64,000 nt of DNA from an uncultured bacterium (GTDB lineage: Bacteria; Bacteroidota; Ignavibacteria; UBA10030; BY39). The position numbers were made by a program, and so were the translations under genes. The notes under the pieces were generated by a model that did no database searches, was not told where the DNA came from, and saw only the letters and a list, made by a program, of their open reading frames with translations. The DNA is taken from positions 1-64,000 of the forward strand of contig CALCJK010000007.1 of NCBI GenBank assembly GCA_937967455.1, in the 5' to 3' direction. Shown one piece after another: positions 11,782 through 19,725 of the stretch (positions are counted from its first letter, which is position 1; every line of letters starts with the position of its first letter).

Positions 11782-14064
11782 TTATATTACTTGATAATAA
11801 TTTTTAACTGCTAAAAACGCTTGACCTAGTGAAATTCCACCATCATTAGGTGGAACTCTTTGGTGCCAAAATACTTTTCTTCCATCAGATTCTAGGAATT
11901 CTATTGTCTTCTCCAACAACAGTATATTTTGAAAACAACCACCGCTTAAAACAACTTTTTTTATATCCAATATATCAGCAACTCTTCTAATAATATTAGC
12001 CATGGTGTTATGAAATTTCTTTGCAACTATTTTAGTGTGTTTTCTTGTGGAATCAACAATTAATTCTTTGATAAAATCTTCCCAATCGATAATATAGATA
12101 TCACCATCTCTAATTATAATTTCATAGTAGTCTTCATTAATTTCATTTGTTGCAGCATATTCCAGCATCATAGCTGCTTGTCCTTCAAAAGCGGATATGT
12201 CTTTAATATTCAATATTGATGCAACTGCATCAAAAATTCTACCAGCACTGGTAGTGAGAGGTGAGTTAATTCTATTTACCAGCATATGCTTCAACAATTC
12301 AATTTCCTTATCTGAAAATTTACTTGATATAAATTCCTGGCAGCATTCGAAAATATTTTCCCCATAAATTTGAAATAATAGTCCAAGAGCCGATCGTCTT
12401 GGTTCTTTAATTGCAATTTCTCCACCTGGTAAGTTAAATTCTCTAAATGTAGCAACTCTTTTAAAATTTTTGATATCAGTAATAAAAAACTCACCACCCC
12501 ATATTTTACCGTCCTCACCATAACCGGTTCCATCCCATGAAACACCCAACACTTCCCCATCCAATCTATTCTCTGCATAACACGCAGCTATATGAGCTTT
12601 ATGATGTTGCATTTTTATTGTATTGACTCCGTGATTCATTGCATATTTTGTTGATAAATATTCGGGATGTAAATCACTAACATATATTAAATTTTGTGAA
12701 GGATAAATTTTTTCAAAATCCTTTATAATTCTTGTAAATGCATTGTAAGATTCCTGCGTAGCAAGATCCCCAATATGTTGACTTATAAAAATGTTTTTTG
12801 AATTAGTGAGTGCTATTGTATTTTTTAAATGAGCACCAACAGCTATAAATGTAACATCTTTTCGCTTTGTACTATCTTCAACAGATATTGGTAATGGTGC
12901 ATAGCCTCTTGCCCTTCTTAATACCAATTCTCGATTTCTTACAATCCTAACAATTGAATCATCAACATGGTGAACAATCGGACGATTATGAACTAAAAAA
13001 TAATCAGCAATTCCCTTAAGTTTTATTAACGCTTCATACTCATCAATGCACATCGGTTCTTCTGATATATTTCCACTTGTAGCAACAATTGGTTTATTTA
13101 CTGATTTCATTAATAGATGATGAAGAGGTGTATATGGTAACATTATTCCAAGATATGGATTATTGGGTGCAACTATATCTGATATTAACAGCTTTTCTGA
13201 TCTTTTTCTCAATAAAACAATTGGAGCTTCTGGTGAACAAAGTACCCTTTGTTCAAATTCAGACACATTACACACTTCTTTTACGCTATTAATATCTGGG
13301 AACATCAATGCTAAGGGTTTTTCCTCTCTAACTTTACGTTTACGCAGTTCTTTTACTATCAAATCATTTGTAGCATCAACGATAAGTTGAAAACCACCCA
13401 AGCCCTTTAGTGCGATTATGTATCCTTTTAGTATTAAATCAGCTGCTAATTGTAATGCATCATTAAATTTGGTTATTATTTCCCCATCAGTGTCCCACAA
13501 TTCAAGATGTGGACCACAATCAGGACACGCAATTGGTTGAGCATGGAACCTTCTATTTCCAGGATTTTCATATTCGCTTCTACAATTCTCACACATTTTA
13601 AATTTCTTCATTGATGTATTTGGTCGATCATATGGTAGAGATTCAATAATAGAAAACCTTGGACCGCAATTTGTGCAATTAATGAAAGGATAGAGATATC
13701 TTCGATCATTAACATCAAACATTTCATTCAGACAATCATTACAGACTGCAATATCTGGAAGTATTATAGCAGATTTTTCTTCGTCAGAATCACTTTCTTT
13801 TATAATAAATTCCTTGTATCCACATGGCTCCAGGTATGAGAATTCGAAGCTATTTATGAAAGATATTGGTGGTTTTTCTTTTTCTATCCTGAGAATGAAT
13901 TTTTCTAAGTCAAATTTTTCTCCCTCAGCTTCAATAAACACACCTTTAGATGAATTAAGTACGAAGCCTTTTAAATTAAGCTCTTTTGCAAGTCGGTAAA
14001 TAAACGGTCTAAAACCGACACCTTGAACAGCACCTCGAATCGATATGTTAACACGTATAATCAT
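11782..14064 (-). CDS. hypF: Carbamoyltransferase HypF
   Basis: Makes carbamoyl-AMP from carbamoyl phosphate and transfers the carbamoyl group to HypE. In order: acylphosphatase domain (RGAVQGVGFRPFIYRLA near the start), two Cys4 zinc fingers (about 105-185, CNDC...CTNC and CENC...CPDC), a YrdC-like domain, and a Kae1-like carbamoyltransferase domain with HHKAH near 486. I chose the ATG at 14064 (760 residues) because the acylphosphatase strand begins just after it. The longer form would start at a TTG (14100) and add 12 residues encoded by a hairpin. Neither start has a clear Shine-Dalgarno site, and the ATG lies inside a perfect inverted repeat. hypA, hypB and the hydrogenase itself are not in the window. 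Confidence 0.94.
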   Translation of the reverse strand: MIIRVNISIRGAVQGVGFRPFIYRLAKELNLKGFVLNSSKGVFIEAEGEKFDLEKFILRIEKEKPPISFINSFEFSYLEPCGYKEFIIKESDSDEEKSAIILPDIAVCNDCLNEMFDVNDRRYLYPFINCTNCGPRFSIIESLPYDRPNTSMKKFKMCENCRSEYENPGNRRFHAQPIACPDCGPHLELWDTDGEIITKFNDALQLAADLILKGYIIALKGLGGFQLIVDATNDLIVKELRKRKVREEKPLALMFPDINSVKEVCNVSEFEQRVLCSPEAPIVLLRKRSEKLLISDIVAPNNPYLGIMLPYTPLHHLLMKSVNKPIVATSGNISEEPMCIDEYEALIKLKGIADYFLVHNRPIVHHVDDSIVRIVRNRELVLRRARGYAPLPISVEDSTKRKDVTFIAVGAHLKNTIALTNSKNIFISQHIGDLATQESYNAFTRIIKDFEKIYPSQNLIYVSDLHPEYLSTKYAMNHGVNTIKMQHHKAHIAACYAENRLDGEVLGVSWDGTGYGEDGKIWGGEFFITDIKNFKRVATFREFNLPGGEIAIKEPRRSALGLLFQIYGENIFECCQEFISSKFSDKEIELLKHMLVNRINSPLTTSAGRIFDAVASILNIKDISAFEGQAAMMLEYAATNEINEDYYEIIIRDGDIYIIDWEDFIKELIVDSTRKHTKIVAKKFHNTMANIIRRVADILDIKKVVLSGGCFQNILLLEKTIEFLESDGRKVFWHQRVPPNDGGISLGQAFLAVKNYYQVI

Positions 14065-14096
14065 CGGTTTAAATATAAAATTTAAACCGATGATTA
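14058..14096 (-). promoter_or_regulatory. Perfect 17-bp inverted repeat covering the hypF start codon
   Basis: Arms TAATCATCGGTTTAAAT (14058-14074) and its exact reverse complement (14080-14096) are separated by 5 bases. On the minus strand the hypF ATG (14064) is inside the downstream arm, so an RNA hairpin would hide the start codon. A TATATT element (14100-14105) just upstream could be a -10 box placing the transcription start at the hairpin edge. No T-run follows, so it is not a normal terminator for the gene ending at 14121. It could be an operator, an RNA switch or a 5' stabilising hairpin. Confidence 0.7.
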
Positions 14097-14120
14097 TCAA
14101 ATATAAATGAACATTAACTA

Positions 14121-17100
14121 TTACTTCAGATAAATCATTTTCCTGATTTCTGAATATTCTTTTACTTGATTAGATCCTTCTCTGGACAAAGATGAGACGA
14201 GGAATTTATAGTAATAAATTCCTGAGGCGAGATTCAGACTATTTGCAGATATTTCTATTTCGTTCCAACCCTCTTCAAAGATTTGTTTATTTAAAACGAT
14301 TGCAATTTTTTGCCCCAATACATTATACAATTCGAGCGTAACAGCAGCGTCTTCAGGAATATAGAACTCAACAGTTGTTGATGGATTAAACGGATTGGGG
14401 TAGTTTTGCATTAATATAAATTTATCAGGTTCAAGTTCCCTATCTTCATTAATCAAAATTGCGGAATAGTTGTACAATGAATCTAATTTTAAAAATGGAA
14501 CTTCAGTTAATTTCTTAAATGGTTTTAATCTCAAACCTGTTGCAAAGCTTATTGTATCAATAGGTCCACAAAAAGCATTGTTTATCATTCTAATCTTTGT
14601 ATAGAGTGTCTCGGGATCTAAACCATTCCAGATAGGTGGCATTACACAAGATGGTGTGCTTGAAAAGTCATCATAAGACGACATATAAAGGTCAAGTGTT
14701 GTAGAAATTCCTCTAATAGACATACCATTTAACTGGGAGTTTCCTCCTTCGTTGAATATTAAACTCCCAAAACCTGGTGGAGTTATTCCAAGATCACTTG
14801 CTTTGATGTTAGCTTTTAGCGCAATAGCTTCAGCAAACAATTTATTGTTACCTTTTGTTGGTGTTAGCCTTGATTGTTGTTTCTTGATTGAGATTCCGTT
14901 TGTAAACTTATCCAAACACCTTGCATCACCAATATGCATACGTCTACTTTTTTCGACCAATGACTTCATCACATCTACATAATTACGATGCAAGACAGTA
15001 TGTGGACCACCCACACCTATCATTAAATTACTACCTGCACCAGCAGCTAATACATTTACAGCATTAGGCATAGGATATCTAGGTTCATAATACTCAATCA
15101 AATCAACTTTTCTCTTTACACCTATAGAATCATCATACATAAACATTATCCACTTTGTAGCTTGTGGTTTAGTTTTTATTGATAAACCACTTATCATTAC
15201 ACTATCGTCAGGCTTTAAATATTCTTCAAATATGATTGATATCAACTTAAGATCAATACTTATTGAACAATTTTTTGAGACACTCAAACTATTTTCGATA
15301 GGAGGTCGAATCAGCATAATTTTAATTGACTTAATTGAATCAGTTACTAAAAAATCTGATGGTTTTATCCACTTTGTTTGCCAGTATATCTTATCCGGTT
15401 TTGACTTAATTAGTTTATATGCCAAAGCAAAGCTATCAGGAATAAAACTAGTGAAAGCAAGATCTTGTGTAGAGTCATAAATACTGCCAAAATTTAAATT
15501 TGTTCTAATTTCTTCAGGAGCAAGAACTATAAAATGTGAATGAAGTCCTTCTGGATATGTCTGCCTCCAATTGGGCTTAAGAATTTGATTAATTGTATAG
15601 TTACCAGGATGGAGATTGTCAATAATATATTCACCTTCCGAATTAGTAATTGTTGATTGACTCACAAATGTATTGTAATATGTATTGCCTTCAAGAACGA
15701 CATTCCAACCGGCAAGACCTGTCTCATCACCGTCTTTTATCCCATTATCATTAATGTCATTAAATAAAACTCCAGATACACTCCCAAATCCTATCTGATA
15801 ATTTCCGAAATCAAGAGTATCAAAATCAACTTCAGAAATCATATCCACAATATAAAATGAATCTGGATACGATTGCCACCAACCAATTTTTGGTACCTCA
15901 ATAACTTTGTAAACATTTGGAGGTATGTTTCTAAATTCATAGTATCCATTGCTATCAGTTGTGGTTTGACGATAATTTGCGAATTTATAACCTGAAAGTT
16001 TCATCAATTTTATCTTAAAATCAGATAGTCCTATTTCTGAAGAATCCCTAATTCCATTTCTATTCGCATCAAAAAACTTATAACCTGAAACAAAATTTTG
16101 TAAAGTAGAACCATAATTTCCGAAATCCAATCCTGAAACAACTGTATCAAGATTACTTAGCTCAACTCTGTAAGTTTCCTCTTGAGTTATTCCAACTGGA
16201 TATGTTTGTATCCAACCATATTTAGATACTTCTTCAATCATGTAATTACCAGGCTCAAGAACAAAGAAATTATAACTCCCCAGTGAATCTGTTCTATCAT
16301 AATCTATTTCATAACAACCTGTAATTTGATCACATTTATATAGCCATACCTTCCAACCAACAATTAATGTATCCTCTTCATCCATTTGAAAATTCTGGTT
16401 AATATCACTAAATTTTACTCCACTGATAGTACTTGCCTGAGTATAATTACCAAAATGCAAACTATCGATTAATGTGTCAGGTGTTGTGATTTGAATATCG
16501 TATTCACCAGTCGAAGGACAGGTTTGAGTCCAATTTGGTTTATGCTCTTCACTTATTATGTAATTTCCCATTGGTAAAGGAATTTGATATCGACCACGGA
16601 TATTAGTTTTTGTTGTTATAGTAATTCCATTTCCTGTTGCAGTAATTAACCAATCTTTAATACCTTTATCTTCAATATCTTTAATACCATTCTGGTTAAA
16701 ATCAAAAAATTTTTTACCTGTAATTAAACCACCATTATCATAGATAATAAGATCATCGATAAACCAGCCTGGGAAATAATTAATTAAATCATCACCAGTA
16801 TCAAATAAAAATCTTATCATAATTTCATGACCGATATATTGGGAGAGATCCAGCAAAGTTAACAACCAGCCATCACTTGATCCGTTTGGTGCAGATCCGT
16901 ATCCACCTCTAAGATGGATCCAATTAGTACCACCATCGGTTGAAACATCAACCATACAATAATCCCAACCTTTCTCAGTTTCATACTTCTCAGCAAAAAG
17001 TAGGTGGACTGGAGCATTAGCATTAATCAAATTTATTGAAGGGGATATAAGTGCATTTAATAATCTTTCACCTGTATTATAATTTCCACTATCTTCGATT

Positions 17101-17465
17101 CCACACCAATAACTTGTATTAGGCGATGCTGCATCTACATTTGTTCTGTGCCACAAATCACTACCTAAATAAGCCGTTGTTGTCCAATTGTTAACCGTCG
17201 TTTCAAAATCATCATAAAAGAAAATTGTTGAATTTGTTTTTAAATTATCACTTACGAATATTCCTATTCGTTGTGATAACATAAAACCTTTATACTTTTG
17301 CTGTTTAAAGGTTTCCAAAGATTGGAGTTTATTATAATCAATAAGTTGTTGTTTAGCATTAAAGTCGCGTTGTTCACTAGCCTTCGAATTATTTTGAGCA
17401 AGTGCATAAGACATCATGCTTGCATGCAAAATAAAGCATAAAATAGTAATCACACTCTTTCGCAT
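14121..17465 (-). CDS. T9SS-sorted protein with SdrD B-like domains
   Basis: A 1114-residue exported protein. A signal peptide (about 1-23, ending SYALAQ) is followed by a jelly-roll-like segment with paired aromatic residues (about 80-245, including YFPGWFIDDLIIYDNGG). Four SdrD B-like repeats start near 250, 348, 460 and 565; each begins like GxxFxDxNxNGIxDxxE, typical calcium-binding beta-sandwich repeats. After a unique region, the C-terminal 90 residues form a T9SS sorting domain (NYPNPFNPSTTVEF, then SGIYYYKFLV). Cell-surface display or release is inferred; the ligand is unknown. TAGGAG lies about 8 bases before the ATG, and a promoter is predicted at 17502-17530. Confidence 0.85.
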   Translation of the reverse strand: MRKSVITILCFILHASMMSYALAQNNSKASEQRDFNAKQQLIDYNKLQSLETFKQQKYKGFMLSQRIGIFVSDNLKTNSTIFFYDDFETTVNNWTTTAYLGSDLWHRTNVDAASPNTSYWCGIEDSGNYNTGERLLNALISPSINLINANAPVHLLFAEKYETEKGWDYCMVDVSTDGGTNWIHLRGGYGSAPNGSSDGWLLTLLDLSQYIGHEIMIRFLFDTGDDLINYFPGWFIDDLIIYDNGGLITGKKFFDFNQNGIKDIEDKGIKDWLITATGNGITITTKTNIRGRYQIPLPMGNYIISEEHKPNWTQTCPSTGEYDIQITTPDTLIDSLHFGNYTQASTISGVKFSDINQNFQMDEEDTLIVGWKVWLYKCDQITGCYEIDYDRTDSLGSYNFFVLEPGNYMIEEVSKYGWIQTYPVGITQEETYRVELSNLDTVVSGLDFGNYGSTLQNFVSGYKFFDANRNGIRDSSEIGLSDFKIKLMKLSGYKFANYRQTTTDSNGYYEFRNIPPNVYKVIEVPKIGWWQSYPDSFYIVDMISEVDFDTLDFGNYQIGFGSVSGVLFNDINDNGIKDGDETGLAGWNVVLEGNTYYNTFVSQSTITNSEGEYIIDNLHPGNYTINQILKPNWRQTYPEGLHSHFIVLAPEEIRTNLNFGSIYDSTQDLAFTSFIPDSFALAYKLIKSKPDKIYWQTKWIKPSDFLVTDSIKSIKIMLIRPPIENSLSVSKNCSISIDLKLISIIFEEYLKPDDSVMISGLSIKTKPQATKWIMFMYDDSIGVKRKVDLIEYYEPRYPMPNAVNVLAAGAGSNLMIGVGGPHTVLHRNYVDVMKSLVEKSRRMHIGDARCLDKFTNGISIKKQQSRLTPTKGNNKLFAEAIALKANIKASDLGITPPGFGSLIFNEGGNSQLNGMSIRGISTTLDLYMSSYDDFSSTPSCVMPPIWNGLDPETLYTKIRMINNAFCGPIDTISFATGLRLKPFKKLTEVPFLKLDSLYNYSAILINEDRELEPDKFILMQNYPNPFNPSTTVEFYIPEDAAVTLELYNVLGQKIAIVLNKQIFEEGWNEIEISANSLNLASGIYYYKFLVSSLSREGSNQVKEYSEIRKMIYLK

Positions 17466-17615: not shown

Positions 17616-17674
17616 GGAGGTTTGTTATGAGGGATTTATTGGTGCGATTTACGGCTGTAGGACCGTCTTTTTAA
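17616..17674 (+). other. Candidate 15-codon mini-ORF with strong Shine-Dalgarno site
   Basis: On the plus strand GGAGG (17616-17620) precedes an ATG at 17627 by 6 bases, followed by 15 sense codons (MRDLLVRFTAVGPSF) and TAA at 17672-17674. A short inverted repeat ACGG/CCGT (17651-17654 and 17663-17666) followed by CTTTTT lies inside it. It is antisense to the ATPase 3' leader and abuts its terminator. It could be a real leader peptide, a small RNA, or simply structured 3' UTR read backwards. Confidence 0.25.
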
Positions 17675-19725
17675 AAGTCATCTATTGCTATTCCTGAAAT
17701 TTCCTGTAATGAGGTTACACCAGACTGAGCAAGATTTATAGCTGATTGCCGTAAAGTAACTAAACCATTCTTTATTGCAAGTGCTCTTATAGCATCCTCA
17801 TCTATGAAGTCCTTTGATTTTAATATAAGCTTTCTCATCTCTTTACTCATAGTAAACGCTTCGTAAATTCCAATCCTACCTTTATAACCTTTTATACATC
17901 TACTACAACCAACAGGTTTATAAAACTTTGAATTTCTCAATTCTTCTTCTTTAAAGCCTAATTCAGAATACAGATCATAGTCAATGTCATTATCAATAAC
18001 TTTACATTTATCACATAATCTGCGAACAAGCCTTTGTGCTATAACGATGTTTATTGTATACGCTAACAAAAAGGGTTCTATACCCATATTATATAATCGA
18101 GTTATAGCACTTACTGAATCATTTGTATGTAATGTTGAAAACACCAAATGTCCTGTATTAGCTAACTTGACAGCTATATCTGCAGAGGTCTTGTCTCTCA
18201 TTTCACCTACCATAACTACATCTGGATCATGTCGTAATATACCTCTCAAAGCACTTTCAAAATCAAGTTTATGATTTAATTTAACCTGCCTACAACCCTC
18301 AATTAAGTATTCTACAGGGTCTTCTATCGTAATAATATTAATTGACGGATCCATAATGGTTTTAATTGCAGCCAGCTGAGTAGTACTTTTTCCACTTCCA
18401 GTAGGACCAGTTAATATTACAATACCCTGAGGTTTACGGATAGCTTTATGAAATAATGATGCAGTGTGTTTATCCATTCCAAGAGAATCAAAACCAGTAA
18501 TAACTTCAGAACCTCGTAGTATTCTGATTACAATAGACTCTAATTTACTTCTTAAATCGCCGCCATATATTGGCATCGTAGAAAACCTAAACCTGATAAT
18601 TTGATTATCTATTGTCCTTTGCGCAAATCCGTCTTGTGATAGAAACTTTTCAAATCTATCAACATTTTTTGCTCTGTCTTTAACAACAGCTAAAACACCC
18701 TCAGAACGTATATCTGTGATTGCCGACCAGAGTGTTAATTTCCCATCTATTCTGAAATAAATTTCAGTTCTTAAAACACCTTTAGGAACTACATGTATAT
18801 CACTCGCTCCGGTACGAACACCATCTACAAGAATACTCTCGATCAAATCTGCAAGTTTTCCCTGACCAATACTTTCTTCAATTGACTTCTCAAGCTCAGC
18901 TTCATAGTCGAGTCTTGAAATTTGAATAAAATCCTCTATATCTTCTAATCCGGGTGGTTTTAATCCCTGATCAAATGCAAGCTGACGCCACAATTCACTA
19001 TAATCAGCAAGAGAAATGTATTTAACTTCATATTTTTCATATCTAAAAGCACTTGCAACTTTATGAATATCTGGATGAGTTGGATCTGGTGTAACAAGCA
19101 CCAATTTATTAATTCCATTTGTTGCGAGTTCAAAAGGTAGAACCTTTCTCTGTATAGCTATCTCATAAAAATAAGGATGTAGGTTATTCAGTAATTTTTT
19201 AATAAACTGCAGTCTTTCTTTATCACCAAAAACTTTTGCAGCATCAACGGTTTCAAAGGAATAATGCTTGGCTAAATTTCTAAATATTTCATCTCTATCC
19301 GCAGATAGGTCTTCAATAAGGATATCTACTAATCTTCTTTTTTTCTCATCCTTTTGTCTAATTTCAAGAGCGCGAACAACCATATCCAGTGTAACAACAT
19401 TATTTTGAAGCAAAATTTCAATAAACCGTGGAATATTTCGCGATTCTCCATACTTATTTGAAACCACGCCTTTTTTATTGTAAAGATTTCCTATTTCTGA
19501 TTGGATTGTAACGATTGGCTGATTGAAATCTGTATTAGAAACCTCAGAATCATTTACAGGTTCAACATTTGATTTGTTTATTACTTCCTCAGCAATATCC
19601 TCGCTGAGTTCAGCTTCAAGTTGCTGGTTCAGGAGTTCACTGAAAACCGCACCTTTTGGTAATTCATTACCTATCTTTAATTCCATTTTCAAAGATAGGT
19701 CGTCTTTTGTATCATCCTTATACAT
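17671..19725 (-). CDS. GspE/PilB-family secretion or pilus motor ATPase
   Basis: Hexameric ATPase that drives pilin or pseudopilin assembly at the inner membrane. After a variable 80-residue N-terminus comes an MshEN/T2SSE-N-like domain (about 85-200), then the motor domain with Walker A GPTGSGKSTT (about 438-447), an Asp box (RHDPDVVMVGEMRD), a His box (STLHTNDS) and a C-terminal tetracysteine zinc site (CDKC...CSRC, about 566-608). The 684-residue length is at the long end for PilB/GspE. Minus-strand AAGAGG precedes the ATG by about 6 bases. No other pilus or type II genes are in the window, so it is either part of a scattered system or an orphan. A CRP-like palindrome and a weak promoter lie upstream; a strong terminator follows. 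Confidence 0.88.
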   Translation of the reverse strand: MYKDDTKDDLSLKMELKIGNELPKGAVFSELLNQQLEAELSEDIAEEVINKSNVEPVNDSEVSNTDFNQPIVTIQSEIGNLYNKKGVVSNKYGESRNIPRFIEILLQNNVVTLDMVVRALEIRQKDEKKRRLVDILIEDLSADRDEIFRNLAKHYSFETVDAAKVFGDKERLQFIKKLLNNLHPYFYEIAIQRKVLPFELATNGINKLVLVTPDPTHPDIHKVASAFRYEKYEVKYISLADYSELWRQLAFDQGLKPPGLEDIEDFIQISRLDYEAELEKSIEESIGQGKLADLIESILVDGVRTGASDIHVVPKGVLRTEIYFRIDGKLTLWSAITDIRSEGVLAVVKDRAKNVDRFEKFLSQDGFAQRTIDNQIIRFRFSTMPIYGGDLRSKLESIVIRILRGSEVITGFDSLGMDKHTASLFHKAIRKPQGIVILTGPTGSGKSTTQLAAIKTIMDPSINIITIEDPVEYLIEGCRQVKLNHKLDFESALRGILRHDPDVVMVGEMRDKTSADIAVKLANTGHLVFSTLHTNDSVSAITRLYNMGIEPFLLAYTINIVIAQRLVRRLCDKCKVIDNDIDYDLYSELGFKEEELRNSKFYKPVGCSRCIKGYKGRIGIYEAFTMSKEMRKLILKSKDFIDEDAIRALAIKNGLVTLRQSAINLAQSGVTSLQEISGIAIDDF

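Follow-up and report, generated by a model that had tools for sequence, protein, structure and literature searches.

A perfect palindrome across the hypF start codon of an uncultured Ignavibacteria bacterium lies on a predicted leaderless promoter and may be an operator

The start codon of hypF in an uncultured bacterium of the Ignavibacteria is covered by a perfect inverted repeat, and this repeat overlies a match to a Bacteroidota-type promoter. What relatives have kept in front of hypF is, to judge from their aligned sequences, the promoter rather than the palindrome. The mRNA made from this promoter would be essentially leaderless and would exclude half of the repeat, which makes an RNA hairpin gate unlikely and leaves the palindrome, at best, as a site where a protein binds DNA. 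With a probability put at roughly 0.45, the reading favored here is that the dyad on the leaderless promoter is an operator specific to the genus, at which protein binding would keep RNA polymerase out. The window is the whole 64,000-nucleotide stretch of contig CALCJK010000007.1 that was analyzed. It was compared within a set of five genomes from one Ignavibacteria family, four of which carry hypF: the source genome of the window (G000), its sister species and the single congener compared (G001), and two members of another genus (G003 and G004). The features listed below are all on the minus strand.

11782–14064 (-): hypF, 760 amino acids, with acylphosphatase, HypF finger, YrdC and Kae1-like domains
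14057–14074 (-): 3' arm of the repeat, ATTTAAACCGATGATTAT, which includes the start codon of hypF and some of the -7 box
14060–14068 (-): ACCGATGAT, 3' half of a 9-bp core shared with G001
14065 (-): transcription start as predicted from the -7 spacing of Flavobacterium, give or take a base or two
14070–14077 (-): -7 element, TATATTTA (TATATTTG in G003 and G004), 20 nt after TTTG and ending 5 nt before the ATG
14075–14079 (-): dyad center of 5 nt, with its axis by position arithmetic at 14077, where the -7 box begins
14080–14097 (-): 5' arm of the repeat, ATAATCATCGGTTTAAAT, in the promoter spacer directly after TTTG
14086–14094 (-): ATCATCGGT, 5' half of the 9-bp core shared with G001
14089–14101 (-): TTTGATAATCATC, an exact 13-mer shared by the hypF upstream regions of the family's four hypF-bearing genomes
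14100–14095 (-): TTGATA, an alternative reading of the -33 element as a -35 element of the sigma-70 type
14098–14101 (-): -33 element, TTTG, invariant in the four genomes
14121–17465 (-): upstream gene with SdrD_B repeats and a T9SS-type tail; 23 nt separate its stop codon from the repeat

The repeat pairs at 18 of 18 positions (arms 14057–14074 and 14080–14097, around a 5-nt loop at 14075–14079), so that an earlier note on this DNA, which had described arms of 17 bp and a 5-base loop, was correct but one pair short. Read along the minus strand, the order is TTTG-ATAATCATCGGTTTAAAT-TTTAT-ATTTAAACCGATGATTAT-ACGTG. Genome statistics for repeats and promoter matches were based on 344 kb of the source genome, in which no other perfect inverted repeat with a loop of 3–20 nt is as long as this one; the runner-up has 17 bp and all others have 14 bp or fewer. 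First-order Markov simulation (5 x 344 kb) produced no inverted repeat longer than 12 bp, composition leads one to expect 1.5e-4 repeats of such length per window and 0.006 per genome, and neither arm has a second copy elsewhere in the genome. The repeat is thus real and not an accident of base composition, and its single genomic copy also rules out a dispersed palindromic repeat of the REP or MITE kind. A plasmid search returned no match. Elsewhere in the genome, a terminator-like perfect inverted repeat of 17 bp with a loop of 4 (ATAAAAAAGGTCTTCCA, G000:C3:132874-132911) was seen; some 190 bp from it lies TTGATGAACATCAA, a perfect FNR-like site.

The hypF gene encodes all of the HypF domains and stands at the head of hypF-hypC-hypD-hypE on the minus strand. 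Its ATG (14064–14062, minus strand) aligns with the start position in relatives and does lie within the 3' arm, as the earlier note had it. Although G000 and G001 have an open in-frame TTG start farther upstream, at 14100, the corresponding site in G003 and G004 is out of frame, and the ATG was therefore retained as the start. The same note had seen no Shine–Dalgarno site, and indeed nothing of that kind precedes the ATG; this says little, however, because the signal is weak throughout the genome, with G only mildly enriched at -8 to -11 (20–28% versus about 12%, 249 genes). The absence fits a leaderless hypF mRNA, though Shine–Dalgarno use is weak anyway.

In the alignment of the four hypF genomes, the invariant blocks are ATTTGATAATCATC and TTTTATATTT, with 8 variable bases between them and the ATG close behind. 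The pattern TTTG-N20-TATATTT(A/G) is found in every one of them, always with a 20-base spacer, and the -7 box ends 5–6 nt before the ATG. TTTG and TAnnTTTG at -33 and -7 characterize the promoters that the primary sigma factor of the Bacteroidota recognizes (PMC7366714, PMC9723704), in which TTTG stands some 19–21 bp before the -7 box. The constant N20 agrees with this spacing, and the -7 consensus is matched completely by TATATTTG in G003 and G004 and in all but the last base by TATATTTA in G000 and G001. A sigma-70-like reading, TTGATA-N17-TATATT, also matches at 10 of 12 positions. The 13-mer TTTGATAATCATC occurs 1, 2, 1 and 1 times genome-wide in the four hypF genomes, with the hypF site always among the copies, and zero times in the one genome without hypF (G002).

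Between G000 and G001, 35 of the 37 positions from -37 to -1 of hypF are identical; farther upstream only 1–6 bases in 10 are, and synonymous codons are identical at 38 of 74. The hypF genes of G003 and G004 have an intrinsic terminator (GAGCCCGGG-N9-CCCGGGCTTTTTT) in front of them whose end is some 58 nt from the ATG; their promoter must therefore sit in the gap, and the conserved element fills that gap. In more distant relatives neither the promoter nor the repeat was found before hypF, which is preceded there by what appear to be other hyp genes (hypB-like C-termini) or by other sequence.

It would follow from this arrangement that TTTG (14098–14101) and TATATTTA (14070–14077), 20 bp apart, drive transcription of hypFCDE from about 14065. 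The mapped -7 box of Flavobacterium extends from -12 to -5 (PMC9723704), and the same spacing predicts a hypF start at -1 relative to the ATG in G000 and G001, or at -2 in G003 and G004, which would make the mRNA essentially leaderless. Messages of this kind account for 5.5% in Flavobacterium (PMC9723704), and 5' UTRs shorter than 10 nt for 3.7% in B. thetaiotaomicron (PMC7366714). Within the 344 kb, promoter matches with an ATG and open frame 3–8 nt downstream number 5, as opposed to 1 for the reversed pattern, an excess that is suggestive, though the numbers are small; the same counts mean that such spacing is uncommon in G000, which speaks against a near-leaderless start. If transcription does begin near 14065, the 5' arm is absent from the promoter's own mRNA and the hairpin cannot form there.

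This bears directly on the view, put forward in the earlier note, that an RNA hairpin gates hydrogenase maturation. Only a transcript reading through from the upstream gene could fold into the hairpin, which is predicted to be stable there (-22.1 kcal/mol over 61 nt, z = -6.1), with the AUG inside it, and in G000 no terminator-like site was found between the upstream stop codon and hypF. A gate could then work by hiding the AUG in readthrough RNA, leaving translation to the leaderless mRNA or to a hairpin opened by some signal. This is an unlikely explanation, as the readthrough is itself hypothetical, the mRNA from hypF's own promoter would not include the 5' arm, and the helix is lost in G003 and G004. 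Nor do the four genomes show covariation: pair types and the covariation score do not rise above shuffles, 11 of the 18 pairs vary by breaking only, and the consensus fold of the four genomes does not include the helix. No Rfam family scored above its gathering threshold, and the sub-threshold matches were at chance level, which excludes a known RNA family; a literature search found no paper on a hypF start-codon hairpin. With a predicted start 1–2 nt before the ATG, no covariation and no repeat in relatives, the gate proposed by the earlier note was not supported. Less likely again is a switch between two transcripts, whereby the leaderless mRNA escapes the hairpin and the readthrough mRNA folds the palindrome and silences hypF translation. 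Were it true, HypF would be made only when its own promoter fires, and the same DNA could also be an operator.

It is very improbable that the hairpin instead acts on the upstream gene's mRNA at its 3' end, whether by forming that end as a terminator or by shielding it as a barrier to RNase. The hairpin does begin 23 nt past the stop codon of that gene, and G003 and G004 have their intrinsic terminator at the equivalent place, though after a different gene. However, no U-tract follows the hairpin and the terminator scan does not report it, a terminator here would overlie the next gene's promoter and start codon, and in G001 the same upstream gene is found without the perfect hairpin. The earlier note had remarked that, for want of a T-run, this is not a typical terminator; both the sequence and the scan agree, and an intrinsic terminator was ruled out. 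As for the gene order itself, the genus of G000 and G001 has the large SdrD_B/T9SS-tail gene between a gspE/pilB-like ATPase gene and hypF (window 14121–17465 and 17671–19725; L146, L147), and in G003 and G004 the ATPase gene is followed directly by the terminator and hypF.

The operator reading takes the repeat as a property of the DNA. The dyad is centered on the -7 box and spans from the -33 box into codon 3, so that a putative protein bound there would block polymerase. The congener G001 retains 13 of the 18 pairs, with its 5 changes uncompensated, and shares with G000 the 9-bp dyad core ATCATCGGT/ACCGATGAT, whose half-sites are 26 bp apart from center to center. The GGT and ACCG bases of the core are no part of the promoter elements, yet both species of the genus have kept them, which lends the operator modest support. 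Against it, the conservation of the core could be that of the promoter alone plus the ATG, and a single genomic site counts against an operator because a regulon would need a second copy. The full palindrome is absent from G003 and G004. The earlier note had named absence of the repeat from close relatives that share the operon as one outcome that would count against it, and that hyp relatives lack the repeat largely tells against the RNA gate on those terms; of its alternatives, an RNA hairpin or an operator, the hairpin is not supported, given the predicted start point, and the operator stands as a candidate, with a dyad centered on the -7 box and a core that is kept.

Nearly as likely as an operator is that the promoter is as described and the palindrome has no function, a weak AT-rich quasi-palindrome that arose by chance and was perfected by template switching during replication (arm correction). 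Template switching is documented to make imperfect inverted repeats perfect in E. coli and for RNA stems (PMC7202029, PMC8794818). All 5 of the 5 arm differences between G000 and G001 pair in G000 and not in G001, they fall in clusters, with 2 neighboring changes in one arm and the other 3 in the opposite arm, and there are no compensatory changes, no covariation above shuffles and no conservation beyond the genus. Yet the changes sit in both arms, and as one switch corrects one arm, two events or a suitable ancestor would be needed. It may also be that G001 has lost pairs instead, as its Ser3 looks derived compared with Ile3 in the other three genomes, and both species still carry the 9-bp core, of which the GGT and ACC(G) bases do not belong to the promoter.

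As to what an operator might respond to, the earlier note had suggested metal, oxygen or hydrogen, and no evidence links the repeat to any of them; the Fur box of the lineage is different and the FNR-like match is imperfect. A Fur operator was rejected since the hypF dyad is without the lineage's Fur box (TTAGAATnATTCTAA before fur); the hypF site of G003 resembles the E. coli 7-1-7 Fur box at 13 of 14 scored positions, a likeness not kept in the genus. An evident Fur box, TTTAGAATnATTCTAAA, lies just before the fur start codon and is conserved in four family genomes (L116, L115, L118, L119). The FNR/CRP-type pattern TTGAT-N4-ATCAA is matched at 9 of 10 positions by TTGATAATCATCAt in G003 and at 8 of 10 by TTGATAATCATCgg in G000, with its TTG overlapping the -33 box. 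FNR-like proteins with E-T-L-S-R are present in the genomes; one such gene (G000:C12:268036, L129), with an N-terminal CxxC and the E-T-L-S-R helix, has an HTH match that ends early and is possibly truncated or frameshifted. No regulator gene was recognized beside the hypFCDE operon, which, like the mismatch to the lineage's own Fur box, counts against an operator. A group-3b-like [NiFe] hydrogenase operon with protease and hypB-like genes (G000:C9:151596-157079, L143; the 3b-like and hypB-like names being assigned by position and by reading of the sequences) is separate from hypFCDE, and a second, Mvh/Hdr-like [NiFe] hydrogenase cluster lies at G000:C3:105375-108242 (L135). The region upstream of the 3b operon has no word of at least 10 bases in common with the hypF site, which speaks against a site common to the two.

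The promoter itself is common to the operator and to the functionless palindrome, and provides a concrete, testable prediction of promoter and start site for the HypF maturation operon of uncultured Ignavibacteria. There is also a caution: however striking a perfect palindrome at a start codon looks, its DNA may lie outside the mRNA, and the promoter should be located before an RNA switch is inferred.

Among known systems, the hypF element resembles Bacteroidota sigma-A promoters in its TTTG, 20-bp spacer and TAnnTTTG (perfect in G003 and G004, with a final A in G000 and G001), but its -7 box is close enough to the ATG to imply a leaderless mRNA, and such mRNAs are uncommon in the phylum. Start-codon-sequestering mRNA hairpins, such as translational gates and thermosensors, likewise have the AUG in the 3' arm of a stable predicted helix; at hypF, however, the 5' arm apparently lies upstream of the transcription start, and the helix lacks conservation. 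With palindromic repressor operators on core promoters, the dyad shares a two-fold symmetry over the spacer, -7 box and +1, but it is unusually long and perfect (18 bp), single-copy and poorly conserved. Corrected quasi-palindromes (PMC8794818, PMC7202029) offer the likeness of a repeat imperfect in the sister species and perfect in G000, with clustered differences, whereas here both arms are changed, perhaps in more than one event, and the change between G000 and G001 may have run in either direction. Both leading readings are of known kinds, the one a dyad that overlaps a promoter and the other a corrected quasi-palindrome over a leaderless promoter.
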